A DNA stretch of 5,784 nt, taken from JACRDV01 sp024860865 [NCBI: Methanobacteriota archaeon]. Its GTDB lineage: Archaea; JACRDV01. Positions 1 to 5,784 of the stretch are shown here, piece by piece (position 1 is the stretch's first letter; the number at the start of each line of letters is the position of its first letter). A program made the translations under genes and the position numbers. The notes below the pieces were generated by a model, which worked only from the letters and a program-made list of their open reading frames with translations, searched no databases and was not told the origin of the DNA. The DNA is taken from positions 1-5,784 of the forward strand of contig JACRDV010000072.1 in NCBI GenBank assembly GCA_024860865.1. The letters run 5' to 3'.

Positions 1-19
1 CCCCATAATTTCATGTGGA
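1..19 (-). promoter_or_regulatory. Origin recognition box (ORB), minus strand
   Basis: Read on the minus strand this is TCCACATGAAATTATGGGG. It shares the TCCA start, the GAAAT centre and the GGGG end with the element at 292-310, at identical spacing. Archaeal ORBs are bound by Orc1/Cdc6 and typically combine a TCCA..GAAA core with a downstream G-string. This copy is inverted relative to the other two. It touches the window edge, so any flanking conserved base is unseen. Confidence 0.55.
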
Positions 20-41
20 ATCCAAATAATTTCGGATATTT

Positions 42-54
42 TCCAATAGAAACA
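42..54 (+). promoter_or_regulatory. Half-length ORB-like core
   Basis: TCCAATAGAAACA matches the ORB core pattern TCCA, three bases, GAAA, and is close to the classical TCCAGTGGAAAC core. The G-string is absent: the following bases run straight into the first copy of the 23-base direct repeat. It may be a mini-ORB with lower affinity, or a chance match in A+T-rich DNA. Confidence 0.3.
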
Positions 55-74
55 TAACTAAAGTTACACTAAAA
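52..74 (+). repeat. 23-base direct repeat, copy 1
   Basis: This copy matches positions 117-139 at 22 of 23 bases; the only difference is A68 versus G133. Each copy contains the dyad TAACT-AA-AGTTA (55-66 here), which would suit a dimeric DNA-binding protein. The part reading GTTACACTAAAA loosely resembles the mini-ORB described for Methanothermobacter (TTACACTTGAAA, from memory), so it could be another initiator site. Its function is unknown. Confidence 0.6.
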
Positions 75-92
75 ACAAGTAAAAACCATCAT

Positions 93-111
93 TGCACAGG
101 AAATATAGGGG
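93..111 (+). promoter_or_regulatory. Origin recognition box (ORB), plus strand
   Basis: The sequence TGCACAGGAAATATAGGGG shares the leading T, CA at positions 3-4, GAAAT and GGGG with the other two full ORBs at the same spacing. From GAAAT onward it matches the 292-310 copy in all but one base, and both are followed by T. Its 5' half is weaker, with TGCA in place of TCCA. It runs into the palindrome GTGCGCAC (111-118) and then the second 23-base repeat. Confidence 0.5.
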
Positions 112-116
112 TGCGC

Positions 117-139
117 ACATAACTAAAGTTACGCTAAAA
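117..139 (+). repeat. 23-base direct repeat, copy 2
   Basis: This is the second copy of the repeat at 52-74, offset by 65 bases, with one mismatch (G133 for A68). The internal dyad TAACT-AA-AGTTA (120-131) is perfectly kept. It directly follows the palindrome GTGCGCAC. I know of no named element with this sequence; an operator or accessory initiator site are both possible. Confidence 0.6.
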
Positions 140-194
140 TGCAAAGGTTAATTTTTCACATAGAGAGACCCAATGATAACAACGAGAAAAACTC

Positions 195-220
195 TTCTCT
201 ACACAGAGAATTTTGTTTTT
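195..220 (+). terminator. Small stem-loop followed by a T-tract
   Basis: TTCTCT (195-200) and AGAGAA (205-210) form a perfect 6-bp stem with loop ACAC, followed at once by TTTTGTTTTT (211-220). This could end a + strand transcript entering from the left, protecting the origin from read-through. The stem is short and A+T-rich, no upstream gene is visible, and the T-tract also belongs to the A+T-rich unwinding candidate, so terminator function is only a possibility. Confidence 0.2.
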
Positions 221-253
221 AAGAAATTAAGAAGCGCGAGTTATTCTTAAAAA
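216..253. repeat. 10-bp perfect inverted repeat in A+T-rich segment (possible unwinding element)
   Basis: TTTTTAAGAA (216-225) and TTCTTAAAAA (244-253) are perfect inverted arms around an 18-base spacer that contains the only G+C cluster here (GCGCG). The surrounding stretch (about 205-260) is roughly three-quarters A+T and lies between the plus-strand ORBs at 93-111 and 292-310. That is where a duplex unwinding element would be expected. The repeat is seen in the sequence; the unwinding role is inferred. Confidence 0.35.
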
Positions 254-291
254 GGCTTTTCCACCCCTTTCAAAACAAAATGTCACTAGTC

Positions 292-310
292 TCCAGTTGA
301 AATAAAGGGG
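292..310 (+). promoter_or_regulatory. Origin recognition box (ORB), plus strand, next to orc1 promoter
   Basis: TCCAGTTGAAATAAAGGGG is the best ORB match in the window. It is very close to the classical core TCCAGTGGAAAC followed by an A-rich spacer and G-string, and a TT follows. Family knowledge is that Orc1/Cdc6 binds the core with its winged helix and the G-string with its AAA+ domain. It ends about 20 bases before the putative TATA region, so Orc1 bound here could also repress its own gene (inference). Confidence 0.65.
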
Positions 311-327
311 TTAAAATGGTAAACCGT

Positions 328-341
328 AATTAAGATATAAT
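328..341 (+). promoter_or_regulatory. Putative TATA-type promoter of orc1
   Basis: The A+T-rich sequence AATTAAGATATAAT resembles an archaeal TATA box. It would place the transcription start near 360-365, about 25 bases upstream of the GGAGG ribosome binding site. The preceding AAACCG could contribute to a BRE, but the match is weak. A TATA-like string in A+T-rich DNA can arise by chance. Confidence 0.35.
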
Positions 342-1691: not shown

Positions 1692-3200
1692 ATGTCATCG
1701 CTTGATGCGCAAGAAAAAATCTTAACCACATTTCTCAGCGCTGGATTTCAGCTTCACCCTGAAGCTTTGAGCCATCTTCTTACCAACCTAAATTTAAATG
1801 AAGTAGCAGAGAAACTTATAAAGAATTTGAATACGATGCAAGAAAAACCCATTGTGCTTACAAAAGATATAGTTGAAACAATACTAAATGAGCAATTTAA
1901 GCCAACAATAACAATTCAAGAGAGCTCAAGTAGCTTTGAACCACTGGCAAAAAAAGTTGAGCCAAGAATTGAAGTGCTCGAAAAAGAAAAGCCAAAATAC
2001 TCCACAAAAGGGACAATTGAAGACTTTATTAAATATTTTAATAACAGGTATGAGAAAATAAAAAAAATTTTACTTGAACACACTAACTTGCGCGATGCAA
2101 GCACAATTTCAGGCCTAAAGGCACTTCAAAATTCAACTCCTGTTAAAATAATTGGATTAATAAGCAATATTCGAACAACAGCAAAAGGAAATAAACTATT
2201 AGAAATTGAAGACCAAACAGGAAAAATTACAGTTCTAATTTCAAATGACTCTGAAGAAGCCCAAGAAAAAGCCAAGCATGTTATATTAGACGAGGTAATT
2301 GGCATTGAAGGAACAGTAGCAAGAAATGGCGAGCTTCTAATTGCAAAAGACATAATTTGGCCAGACACCCCAGTTAAAAAAGAACAAACTAAAGCCGAAG
2401 ATCCAATTTGCATTGGATTGCTTTCCGACTTGCACGTAGGAAGTAAAATGTTTCTAAAGAAAGAGTTTGAGCGTTTTTTAAAATGGTTAAATACTGGTTT
2501 TGGAAACCCAAAACAAAAAGAACTCGCAAGCCGGATTAAATACTTGATCATTGCTGGAGACTTAGTGGATGGAGTCGGTGTTTATCCAGACCAAGAAAAA
2601 GAGCTTGAAATTTCTGACATTCACCAGCAATATATTGAAGTTGCAAAATTATTGGAACAGATCCCAGATTACATTGAAATAATTATCACACCTGGTAATC
2701 ACGATGCTATTAGGATAGCCGAGCCGCAGCCTCCGCTACCAAGAGATATAGCAGCCCCTTTGTTTGAATTAGACAATGTTCATATGCTTGGGAACCCAGC
2801 GCGGGTAAATATACATGGCTTTAAAACTTTAATTTATCATGGGCGCAGCCTAGACGATATAACTTCAGCAATCTCAGGGTTATCTTTATCTCAGCCTGAA
2901 CTAGCGATGGTTGAGCTTTTAAAAAGAAGGCACTTAGCTCCTATTTATGGTGAACGAGCGCTTATTGCACCAGAAGCCGAAGATCTTTTAGTAATTGATG
3001 AAATCCCAGATATATTTCAGGCAGCACACGCCCATACAGTTGGATTAACTAACTACAGAGGAGTTATAACTGTAAACTCTGGTGCATGGCAATCTCAAAC
3101 AGCATATCAAAAAACACAAGGATTAACTCCCACACCTGCTCGTTTGCCCATTGTAGACTTACAATCCTTAAAAACAACAATTTTAAGATTTGGTGCTTAA
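1692..3200 (+). CDS. polB: DNA polymerase D small subunit DP1 (Mre11-like 3'-5' exonuclease)
   Basis: DP1 pairs with DP2 to form PolD and supplies proofreading. The 502-residue protein has a small helical N-terminal domain (about 9-45, SAGFQLHPEALSHLL), a Lys/Glu-rich linker, an OB fold (about 150-215, VKIIGLISNIRTTAKGNKLL) and a calcineurin-type phosphoesterase domain from about 238. Metal-site motifs are intact: SDLHVGS with D246 and H248, GDLVDG with D290, PGNHD with N336 and H337, YHGRS with H383, and AHAHT with H446 and H448. The DP1 signature KRRHLAPIYGERALIAPEAE lies just before the last motif. In the last motif Ala replaces the Gly usual in GHxH, a mild change. Start choice is uncertain. 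ATG 1692 begins near the family's usual N terminus; TTG 1635 would add 19 Lys-rich residues and leave only 10 bases after orc1. Neither has a clear ribosome binding site. The gene is probably cotranscribed with orc1 and DP2. Confidence 0.95.
   Translation: MSSLDAQEKILTTFLSAGFQLHPEALSHLLTNLNLNEVAEKLIKNLNTMQEKPIVLTKDIVETILNEQFKPTITIQESSSSFEPLAKKVEPRIEVLEKEKPKYSTKGTIEDFIKYFNNRYEKIKKILLEHTNLRDASTISGLKALQNSTPVKIIGLISNIRTTAKGNKLLEIEDQTGKITVLISNDSEEAQEKAKHVILDEVIGIEGTVARNGELLIAKDIIWPDTPVKKEQTKAEDPICIGLLSDLHVGSKMFLKKEFERFLKWLNTGFGNPKQKELASRIKYLIIAGDLVDGVGVYPDQEKELEISDIHQQYIEVAKLLEQIPDYIEIIITPGNHDAIRIAEPQPPLPRDIAAPLFELDNVHMLGNPARVNIHGFKTLIYHGRSLDDITSAISGLSLSQPELAMVELLKRRHLAPIYGERALIAPEAEDLLVIDEIPDIFQAAHAHTVGLTNYRGVITVNSGAWQSQTAYQKTQGLTPTPARLPIVDLQSLKTTILRFGA
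3192..3195 (+). promoter_or_regulatory. Ribosome binding site of DP2 inside the end of DP1
   Basis: GGTG lies within the last codons of DP1 and six bases before the TTG at 3202. It pairs with the CACC of the archaeal anti-Shine-Dalgarno. Its placement supports translation of DP2 from TTG and suggests translational coupling with DP1, whose TAA ends one base before that start. Confidence 0.5.
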
Positions 3201-3201
3201 T

Positions 3202-5784
3202 TTGAGCGCAGAGAGTCCGGAGACAGAGGCCTATCTTAAAAGCATTGAGGAAGAAGTTGAGAAAGCATATAAAGCCGCACAAATTGCACGCCAGCAGTGT
3301 AAAGATCCTGAGCCTGATGTTGAAATTTCATTAGCAGCAGATCTTGCTTCTAGAGTTGAAGGTCTTTTAGGTTTTAAAGGCGTTGCTGAAAAAATTCGAG
3401 AGTTTAATACAAACTTCTCACGTGAAGAAGTTGCACTAAAAATTGCAGAAGAAATAGCAGCTGGAAAAATCGGAACATTTGAAGATAAAGAGAAAGCAAT
3501 TGAATGCGCAATCAGAATTGCACTTGCAATTTTAACAGAAGCAGTAGTTGCGGCACCAATTGAAGGGATATCAAGAGTAAAAATTAAAGAAAATTCAGAT
3601 CGCACAAAATATCTTGCAGTTTATTTTGCCGGGCCGATTAGGTCTGCTGGTGGAACTGCTGAAGCATTTACAGTTTTGGTTGGAGATAAACTAAGACAAT
3701 TATTAAATTTAGATCGATATAAGCCAAGTGAAAAAGAAATTGAACGATATGTCGAAGAAGTTGAATTATACGAAACTGAAGCTGCACATCTACAGTATCC
3801 TTCAACTCCAGATGAAATTCGATTTGCTGTGAAAAACCTTCCAATAGAAATTACTGGCGAACCTACTGACAAAATTGAAGTAACCGGTTATAGAGATTTA
3901 GAAAGAGTCGAAACAAACCAAGTCCGTGGCGGAGCAATTCTTGTTTTAGTTGAAGGAGTTTTATCAAAAGCAACTAAAATAGCAAAGCTTGCTGAAGAGT
4001 TGAAACTCGAGGGCTGGAGTTGGATAAAGGAGTTGGCACAAAAACGAGTTGAAAAAAAATCTACAAAAGAGCCGATTACGCCGAAGTACTTAGAAGATGT
4101 AATTGGGGGGCGTCCAATTCTCGCCTATCCAAATCAGCCAGGGGGCTTTAGGTTAAGATATGGGCGCTGCAGGAACTCGGGCTTAGCTGCCCAATCAATC
4201 CATCCAGCGACCATGGTTATTTTAGATGAGTTCATTGCTGTTGGCACTCAAATTAAAACAGAGCGCCCTGGTAAAGCAGCAGCCATCGTTCCTTGCGACA
4301 CAATCGAAGGGCCGATTGTAAAACTAAAAACAGGCGATGTCATTTATGTTAATACCTTAGAAGAAGCATATAAACTCAAAGACCAGGTTGCTGAAATATT
4401 ATTTTTAGGGGATATTTTAATCTCTTATGGGGAATTTCTTGAAAACAATCACCCATTAATGCCGTCTGGTTACAGCGAAGAGATTTGGCAACAAGAACTA
4501 GAAAAAGTTGCTAAGCAGTCAAATACATTGGATGTTTATCAAATTAAAATGTACATTGAAGATTCAATAAAAAATGTACCAACTGCACAAGAAGCAATAC
4601 AACTTTCTGAAAAATTCAGGATACCTCTGCATCCGCGGTATACTTATTATTGGCACGATATTTCAGCTGAAAGTATCCTTAAGTTAGTTGATTGGATTGT
4701 AAGCGGTGAGTTCTCAGACTCAACACTTAAGTTGCCAATATCAGAAGAAAAAAAGCTACTTGAAATGCTTGGGATTCCGCACAAAATTTCCAATAATTTA
4801 GTTGCCCTAGATTCAAATGAAAGCCAAATTTTGTTAAGATGTTTAGGTTTAGACGAAAAACTATCAAAACAAAGGTTTGAAGAGGTTTATACCAGCAGAA
4901 GTTGGGCAGATCCAGTTGAGTTAGTTTCAGCTTTAGCAGGGTTTTCAGTTCGCAAAAAAGCTCCTACTAAAATTGGAGCGCGAATGGCCAGGCCTGAAAA
5001 GGCTAACATGCGAATGATGAAACCAGCACCGCATTTTTTGTTCCCGCTTGGATGGGCTGGGGGCAAAACTAGGAATACGATAAAAGCAACGAAAAACGGC
5101 ACAATTACCGTTGATATAGTTTACAGAAAATGTCCAATTTGCAAAAAAACAACTTTTAAACCAAAGTGCATTTGCGGTGGACGGACGAGAATTACATCTC
5201 CATCTCATAAAGACCAAGGGTTGCTGATTAAAGACTTGCTAGAAGAGGCAGCTAAAAACATACATGAAAATATACCGGAAGAAATTAAAGGAGTAGTTGG
5301 ATTAATTAGTCGAGATAAAGTTCCAGAGCCACTTGAAAAAGGAATTTTGCGAGCAAAGTATGATTTACACGTTTTTCGAGACGGAACAATTCGATTTGAT
5401 GCTACAAATCTTCCGCTCACTCATTTTAGACCATCTGAAATCAAAACTGATGTTGAAAAACTTAAACAATTAGGTTACCGGACAGATTGCTATGGGAAAC
5501 CTCTCTTAAACGGAGATCAGATTATAGAATTAAAACAGCAAGATTTAGTAATTCCTGAAAAGGGTGGAGAATGCCTAGTTAAAATTACAAAGTTTATTGA
5601 TGAAATGTTGGCGAAATTTTATAATTTGTCACCTTATTACAACGTTAATAAAATTGAAGATTTAGTTGGGCATTTAGTTGTTGGATTAGCACCACATACC
5701 TCAGTTGGAGTTATTGGGAGAATAATTGGTTTTACAAGAGCCGATGCTTGTTTTGCGCATCCATACTTTCATGCTGCGAAAAGA
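3202..5784 (+). CDS. polC: DNA polymerase D large catalytic subunit DP2, 3' end cut by the window
   Basis: DP2 is the polymerase subunit of PolD, with a two-barrel catalytic core related to that of multisubunit RNA polymerases. The frame stays open from TTG 3202 to the window end, giving 861 codons of an expected 1100 or more. Family signatures in order are FAGPIRSAGGTA (142-153), GGRP (302-305), GGFRLRYGRCRNSG (314-327), TERPGKAA (353-360), KIGARMARPEKA (590-601), a zinc-binding segment CPIC..CIC (644-658), DATNLPLTHFRPSEI (733-747), GLAPHTSVG (828-836) and AHPYFHAAKR (852-861). The last motif normally leads straight into RNCDGDED, which carries the catalytic aspartates; those, the later zinc site and the C-terminal PCNA-binding region lie outside the window. 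The TTG start is chosen because it follows the DP1 stop by one base, has GGTG six bases upstream, and gives an N terminus (EAYLKSIEEEVEKAYKAA) that fits the family. No internal stop or frameshift was seen and no intein occurs in the visible part. The family call is certain. Confidence 0.97.
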   Translation, partial: MSAESPETEAYLKSIEEEVEKAYKAAQIARQQCKDPEPDVEISLAADLASRVEGLLGFKGVAEKIREFNTNFSREEVALKIAEEIAAGKIGTFEDKEKAIECAIRIALAILTEAVVAAPIEGISRVKIKENSDRTKYLAVYFAGPIRSAGGTAEAFTVLVGDKLRQLLNLDRYKPSEKEIERYVEEVELYETEAAHLQYPSTPDEIRFAVKNLPIEITGEPTDKIEVTGYRDLERVETNQVRGGAILVLVEGVLSKATKIAKLAEELKLEGWSWIKELAQKRVEKKSTKEPITPKYLEDVIGGRPILAYPNQPGGFRLRYGRCRNSGLAAQSIHPATMVILDEFIAVGTQIKTERPGKAAAIVPCDTIEGPIVKLKTGDVIYVNTLEEAYKLKDQVAEILFLGDILISYGEFLENNHPLMPSGYSEEIWQQELEKVAKQSNTLDVYQIKMYIEDSIKNVPTAQEAIQLSEKFRIPLHPRYTYYWHDISAESILKLVDWIVSGEFSDSTLKLPISEEKKLLEMLGIPHKISNNLVALDSNESQILLRCLGLDEKLSKQRFEEVYTSRSWADPVELVSALAGFSVRKKAPTKIGARMARPEKANMRMMKPAPHFLFPLGWAGGKTRNTIKATKNGTITVDIVYRKCPICKKTTFKPKCICGGRTRITSPSHKDQGLLIKDLLEEAAKNIHENIPEEIKGVVGLISRDKVPEPLEKGILRAKYDLHVFRDGTIRFDATNLPLTHFRPSEIKTDVEKLKQLGYRTDCYGKPLLNGDQIIELKQQDLVIPEKGGECLVKITKFIDEMLAKFYNLSPYYNVNKIEDLVGHLVVGLAPHTSVGVIGRIIGFTRADACFAHPYFHAAKR

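Follow-up and report, generated by a model that had tools for sequence, protein, structure and literature searches.

Archaeal chromosomal origins that carry origin recognition boxes (ORBs) beside the initiator gene orc1/cdc6 are found in the Methanosarcinales, Methanocellales, Methanofastidiosia and Mnemosynella, many of them with a distal box on the minus strand and a proximal box on the plus strand, and in some of them the DNA polymerase D subunits DP1 and DP2 are encoded downstream. More elaborate origins have been described elsewhere. In Sulfolobus, oriC1 is reported to combine ORB2 and ORB3 with an AT-rich duplex unwinding element (DUE) and with ucm, a motif that is bound by the protein UBP and needed for origin activity, and UBP has been proposed there to assist the departure of MCM from the origin (PMC12141716). 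The account of Haloarcula hispanica describes an oriC1 in which a G-rich inverted repeat, located inside two inverted ORBs, acts as an enhancer, and an oriC2 that is negatively controlled by an ORB-rich region, likely through titration (PMC3936714). In Ca. M. intestinalis, a lone ORB is noted downstream of ftsZ (PMC4153887).

Here we describe a locus that shares features with each of these systems. The window, by which we mean the whole 5,784-nucleotide stretch of DNA that was analyzed, is an entire contig (C20) of a draft archaeal genome (1,544,231 bases, 160 contigs, 92% complete). It has the same ORB consensus as the four groups named above, whose Orc1 proteins are 59–64% identical to the window Orc1; compared with them, a palindrome array was found in the window only, and the cores of its first two ORBs are just 73 bases apart. 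Like Sulfolobus oriC1, it has an AT-rich spacer flanked by inverted ORBs, with a second motif near the middle of it, a likeness of layout; ucm is described as an 11-bp motif bound by monomeric UBP at more than 300 genomic sites (PMC12141716), whereas the window palindrome occurs at five exact places in its genome. As in H. hispanica oriC1, a repeat lies within an inverted ORB pair, but instead of a G-rich inverted repeat the window has AT-rich 14-bp palindromes, which occur outside the ORBs as well (PMC3936714). Finally, as reported for Ca. M. intestinalis (PMC4153887), a canonical ORB stands alone far from the candidate oriC, and in this genome one such box lies just before mcm.

Three canonical ORBs upstream of orc1

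The left flank of the window is read through contig C5, whose last 141 bases are identical to the first 141 bases of C20, and the join between the two contigs depends on this overlap. Positions are numbered so that base 0 immediately precedes window base 1. Between a leftward 78-aa ORF on C5 and orc1, measured start to start, the intergenic region spans approximately −106 to 397, or 504 bases if that ORF is a gene, and is longer otherwise. The features of the region and of the genes that follow are:

C5:5080–5316, minus: 78-aa ORF, leftward, without a match to any Pfam or NCBIfam family
1..21 (core 19-mer 1–19, TCCACATGAAATTATGGGG), minus: ORB1, G-tract leftward, matrix score 23.9
20..92: AT-rich spacer between the inverted ORB1 and ORB2, 73 bases, 75% AT, candidate duplex unwinding element
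91..113 (core 19-mer 93–111, TGCACAGGAAATATAGGGG), plus: ORB2, G-tract rightward, matrix score 21.5, the weakest of the three
290..312 (core 19-mer 292–310, TCCAGTTGAAATAAAGGGG), plus: ORB3, canonical, matrix score 34.3
332..341, plus: TATA-like element of orc1, picked by eye and unscored
398..1624, plus: orc1, Orc1/Cdc6 family, 408 aa, TTG start; NF001625 'ORC1-type DNA replication protein' equivalog, 620.5 bits against a cut-off of 501
1692..3200, plus: PolD small subunit DP1, first possible start codon in frame at 1635
3202..5784, plus: PolD large subunit DP2, continuing past the window end

The sequence-only reading had proposed that three 19-mers in front of orc1 define a candidate origin, and their alignment is reproduced: the three copies align without gaps, 12 of 19 columns are identical (T.CA...GAAAT...GGGG), and orc1 starts to the right of all three, at 398. 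Searched across the genome, the pattern TSCANNNGAAATNNNGGGG returned five exact matches, against none for its reversed control; as two of these are the same bases repeated on C5 through the overlap, they represent three unique sites, all before orc1. Random genomes (n = 60, of equal size, with a dinucleotide make-up estimated from stretches of the same genome) contained a mean of 0.08 exact matches, with a maximum of 2. A looser pattern, TSCANNNGAAANNNNGGGG, searched with one mismatch, gave 20 rows versus 6 in the reversed control, and the pattern searches of the genome found no other ORB cluster.

The common archaeal ORB motif given with Ori-Finder 2 is TCCA[CG]T[TG]GAAA[TC][GA]AAGGGGT (PMC4164010), and when it was searched genome-wide with up to three mismatches (reversed control, 0), ORB3 matched perfectly and was the best site of the genome, followed by the mcm site with one mismatch and a site on contig C86 with two, both discussed below; ORB1 and ORB2 (listed twice via the overlap) appeared at three mismatches together with weak sites on C37 and C39. 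The relatives' own ORB consensus, searched in the same manner (reversed control, 0), recovered the mcm site at two mismatches and ORB2 (twice), ORB3 and the C86 site at three, and missed ORB1 at this threshold over the whole genome. ORB1 is cut by the window edge, with two more bases on C5, and its full form read across the overlap is ATTCCACATGAAATTATGGGGTT; ORB2 has G instead of C in TCCA, and each of these two boxes is weak taken singly. The scores listed above derive from a matrix of 23 columns built from 56 ORBs upstream of relatives' orc1, the present genome excluded, and applied to those stretches of this genome that were found by pattern or chosen. Sites scoring at least 20 are expected 0.2 times per random genome (n = 60), and the top matrix site in six further random genomes scored 12.4 to 23.3. 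As judged by sequence, then, the three 19-mers are canonical ORBs, the ordinary docking sites of archaeal Orc1. Two earlier suggestions do not hold: the pattern was thought to be a lineage-specific version of the ORB, but ORB3 fits the published common motif without mismatch, and further boxes were predicted left of the leftmost copy, where C5 holds no other site scoring at least 8 by the ORB matrix.

ORB1 and ORB2 form an inverted pair with cores 73 bases apart and a core midpoint at 56. The two 50-base bins over the intervening spacer, at 76% AT, are the highest of the intergenic region.

Conservation among relatives

The relatives' orc1 loci are the best 80 of 330, of which L076 and L098 were excluded from upstream counts because their contigs end just before orc1, leaving 78. 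The highest Orc1 identity seen among the relatives compared is about 66%, so that conservation of the ORBs could be tested only at a distance, and in the samples of relatives, of 40 and 120 genomes, no genome was marked as closer than the same domain. In trees of DP2 (28 rows) and of Orc1 (70 rows with 69 of the 80 loci), the window sits on a long, loosely placed branch; by tree path, the nearest DP2 sequences are those of Hadesarchaea, scarcely closer than Thermococcus, and the nearest Orc1 sequences those of Methanoperedens and Mnemosynella.

At that distance, an ORB with at most one mismatch was found within 1.2 kb upstream of orc1 at 46 of 78 loci (reversed control, 0). The remaining 32 loci, which include 16 of 20 from Thermococcaceae/Thermococcales, had none at this threshold, and all eight Hadesarchaea loci were without an exact ORB, two of them having a one-mismatch site. 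By matrix score, 41 of 78 upstream regions hold a site of at least 20 (reversed matrix, 0), a count that is partly circular because the same loci supplied the matrix. Where two or more ORBs are present (n = 32), 17 loci run from a distal minus to a proximal plus box as in the window, 13 carry plus boxes only and 2 have a plus–minus order. The strict ORB pattern TTCCANTGGAAATAAAGGGGT, searched with one mismatch, matched in only 17 of the 121 genomes, a count to which the present genome belongs, and its reversed control matched in none. DP1 and DP2 are both encoded downstream of orc1 at 28 of the best 80 loci.

Orc1 and a second paralogue

The window Orc1 matches the solved Orc1 chains 2qby_A (E = 8.7e-109) and 2v1u_A (E = 2.1e-105), both of which we take to be Orc1–DNA complexes. 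Their nature is consistent with the structural account that supplies ApeOrc1 R345, R346, R367 and R369 as reference arginines near ORB DNA (PMC9738581). In a hand alignment, the window Orc1 has R352, R353, K374 and R376 at these positions, three identical and one changed from R to K. Among the best 80 of the 330 relatives' loci, KGR is present at 61, with 18 unmatched by the expression used and one KGC, and the RR pair is present at 33, with 45 unmatched by the expression used.

The genome has a second member of the family:

C6, L145:3213–4409: second Orc1/Cdc6 paralogue, passing the NF001623 ORC1-type equivalog (344.3 versus a cut-off of 311)

By eye, its winged helix reads TQVW compared with TQRR in Orc1, and thus it does not have the RR pair. 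On account of this winged helix, the second paralogue is probably not an ORB reader, although it does pass the ORC1-type equivalog cut-off. A second origin at this gene was considered and rejected, the stretch fetched around it containing no site with fewer than three mismatches. The paralogue adjoins genes that, by eye, read like RadA, Mre11 and Rad50.

ORBs away from orc1

Two lone sites elsewhere in the genome stand out from background:

C76:6843–6865 (L139), minus: mcm-upstream ORB TTTCCAGTGGAAGTAAAGGGGTT, score 30.3, the best ORB match outside the candidate oriC
C86:5396–5418 (L140): lone ORB GTTCCAGTGGAAGAAAAGGGGTT, score 23.4, flanked by the gene of a weakly MarR/ArsR-like regulator and by a 133-aa ORF

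The first lies between a TATA-like element at 6795, picked by eye, and the mcm TTG start at 6912, and a score of at least 27 was reached in none of the 60 random genomes. An ORB just before mcm was not found to recur among relatives: 95 mcm-upstream sequences were scanned, including this genome (own site, 30.3) and G007 twice, with 12 of 42 and 1 of 67 listed rows excluded, start codons mostly not located and no close relative in the sample. Among the other mcm upstream regions, G038 was the sole genome with sites of at least 17 (27.1 and 21.1), and three others reached 14.5–16.3. The mcm site is therefore probably a genuine Orc1 site in this lineage, where it may serve regulation or titration. 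A search of titles and abstract beginnings found no literature report of ORBs in front of mcm, which does not prove that none exists. The G038 sites (L172, sites 330 and 425) precede the estimated mcm start by roughly 750–850 bases and share their contig with orc1, and the mcm gene of the present genome (L139:6912–11972) contains two stretches with intein-splicing and LAGLIDADG features.

For the C86 site, 0.03 sites of at least 23 are expected by chance per random genome. By analogy with H. hispanica oriC2, the lone ORBs of this genome could also titrate Orc1. The 133-aa ORF next to the C86 site belongs to no confident family and is followed by a ubiX-like flavoprotein gene and by one that, by eye, resembles ubiD.

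Other sites were set aside. A weak ORB-like site on C118, TTTCCAGTAGAAAACTTGGGGTT, in the NrdD/Lrp intergenic region (stretch L142:2680–3650), first seemed attractive because the ribonucleotide reductase gene nrdD follows it, and was dropped because it scores 17.7 while random genomes give 0.57 sites of at least 17; we do not claim it as an ORB. The Lrp/AsnC frame there appears interrupted, with the helix-turn-helix part in another frame just upstream, as read by eye. Sites on C130 (15.0) and C23 (12.5), and weaker ones, look like background.

A palindromic repeat interleaved with the ORBs

The palindrome RTAACTAWAGTTAY occurs four times among the ORBs, and these are four of its five exact places in the genome, the fifth being on C81:

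−93..−80 (C5:5330–5343), no strand: P1, palindrome RTAACTAWAGTTAY
−25..−12 (C5:5398–5411), no strand: P2, within the perfect 16-mer CGTAACTATAGTTACG, just outside ORB1, center −18.5
54..67, no strand: P3, ATAACTAAAGTTAC, approximately midway between ORB1 and ORB2, center 60.5
119..132, no strand: P4, ATAACTAAAGTTAC, five bases beyond ORB2 on its G-tract side, center 125.5

The order of elements is thus P1, P2, ORB1 (minus), P3, ORB2 (plus), P4, ORB3 (plus) and orc1. By chance, 0.17 exact matches are expected per random genome on both strands, a rate that serves as a guide and not as a test because the motif was chosen after the repeat had been seen here. Elsewhere in the genome, one-mismatch rows number 20 versus 23 in the reversed control. 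The palindrome was not found before orc1 at the 78 relatives' loci at up to one mismatch, on both strands and up to 900 bases upstream, four of these upstream stretches being shorter than 900 bases.

By analogy with ucm and UBP at Sulfolobus oriC1, a second DNA-binding protein, acting as a dimer, most likely recognizes the palindrome and would help or time origin firing. SegB sites, described as palindromic and in some cases near archaeal origins, were considered as an identity for the repeat and rejected, since the SegB consensus TCTAGASTCTAGA is unlike RTAACTAWAGTTAY (PMC12284271).

Function of the locus

We consider it very likely, with a probability of about 0.87 that does not extend to any role of the palindromes, that the region from approximately −106 to 397 is the Orc1-dependent chromosomal oriC of a deep euryarchaeal lineage, because its ORBs are canonical and unique, the ORB-contacting residues of Orc1 are kept and the strand order is common in relatives. 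The locus is intergenic beside orc1/cdc6, has an inverted ORB pair around an AT-rich element, and is followed by a gene for an Orc1 with the corresponding winged-helix residues. The assignment to a deep euryarchaeal lineage is presumed; the comparisons themselves found no close relative. The earlier proposal of a candidate oriC bound by Orc1 is thus the best reading, given canonical ORBs beside orc1 and polD, a pattern unique in the draft and a strand order frequent in relatives.

Could the boxes instead lack function, as chance matches or decayed repeats? Two of the three copies do depart from the consensus, but three sites within 310 bases, set against 0.08 per random genome, and the match of ORB3 to an independently published motif make this highly improbable. 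It is also conceivable, if unlikely, that the ORBs mainly regulate transcription of orc1–polD, and maybe of mcm too, while the working origin lies elsewhere or initiation is origin-independent. ORB3 is positioned directly before the TATA-like element of orc1, there are single ORBs before mcm and in another intergenic region, and Thermococcus kodakarensis is reported to remain viable when cdc6 and its presumed origin are lost (PMC5663688). However, origins usually have the layout seen here, with three ORBs of which two form an inverted pair flanking an AT-rich spacer, and pattern searches of the genome turned up no competing ORB cluster.

A more serious challenge, somewhat short of even odds, concerns the palindromes and not the oriC: they may be unrelated to replication and serve as operators through which a repressor acts on orc1 or on the leftward 78-aa ORF. 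Palindromes of 14 bases are a typical operator form, and P1 is 14 bases from the start of that ORF; against this, three of the four copies are interleaved with ORB1 and ORB2, one of them about midway between the two, and the 78-aa ORF, lacking a Pfam or NCBIfam match, may not be a gene.

If the locus is an origin, Orc1 from the neighboring gene would bind ORB1 on the minus strand and ORB2 and ORB3 on the plus strand, with the TCCA...GAAA dyad read by its winged helix and the GGGG tract by its initiator-specific motif. MCM loading and DNA opening would then take place in the 73-base, 75% AT spacer flanked by ORB1 and ORB2. These binding and opening steps are ones that we infer for this origin. 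ORB3, which lies beside the TATA-like element of orc1, may contribute autoregulation, and a second dimeric protein on the palindromes would help or time firing. A broader and considerably more tentative hypothesis is that Orc1 acts both as initiator and, as DnaA does in bacteria, as a transcription regulator of orc1–polD, mcm and a further unit through their ORBs, an Orc1 regulon, while at the origin core a second dimeric protein on the interleaved palindromes acts as a dedicated euryarchaeal equivalent of UBP; we regard this combination as a whole as unlikely.

With this locus, a candidate oriC is available for an archaeal lineage that had no close relatives among the sets searched, and the code between Orc1 and ORB appears little changed in it. 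The interleaved palindromes offer a precise means of looking for a second protein that binds origins outside Sulfolobus, for which such a protein has been demonstrated, and the ORB just before mcm makes direct initiator control of replication genes testable.

Minor observations in relatives

Three relatives (L065:4609, L070:9734 and L031:11370) also have ORB-like sites on the downstream side of orc1, within the polD region or close to it. Lone ORBs were seen in two further settings: in G001 (L186), at 1501–1521, at least 100 bases before a CetZ tubulin-like gene (open frame 217–1401, minus), and in G029 (L185), a zero-mismatch site at 1501–1521 before an AAA ATPase gene (open frame 74–1312, minus). 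In the Methanimicrococcus locus L030, seven near-copies of GCAAAAATTTTAGC lie upstream of orc1.
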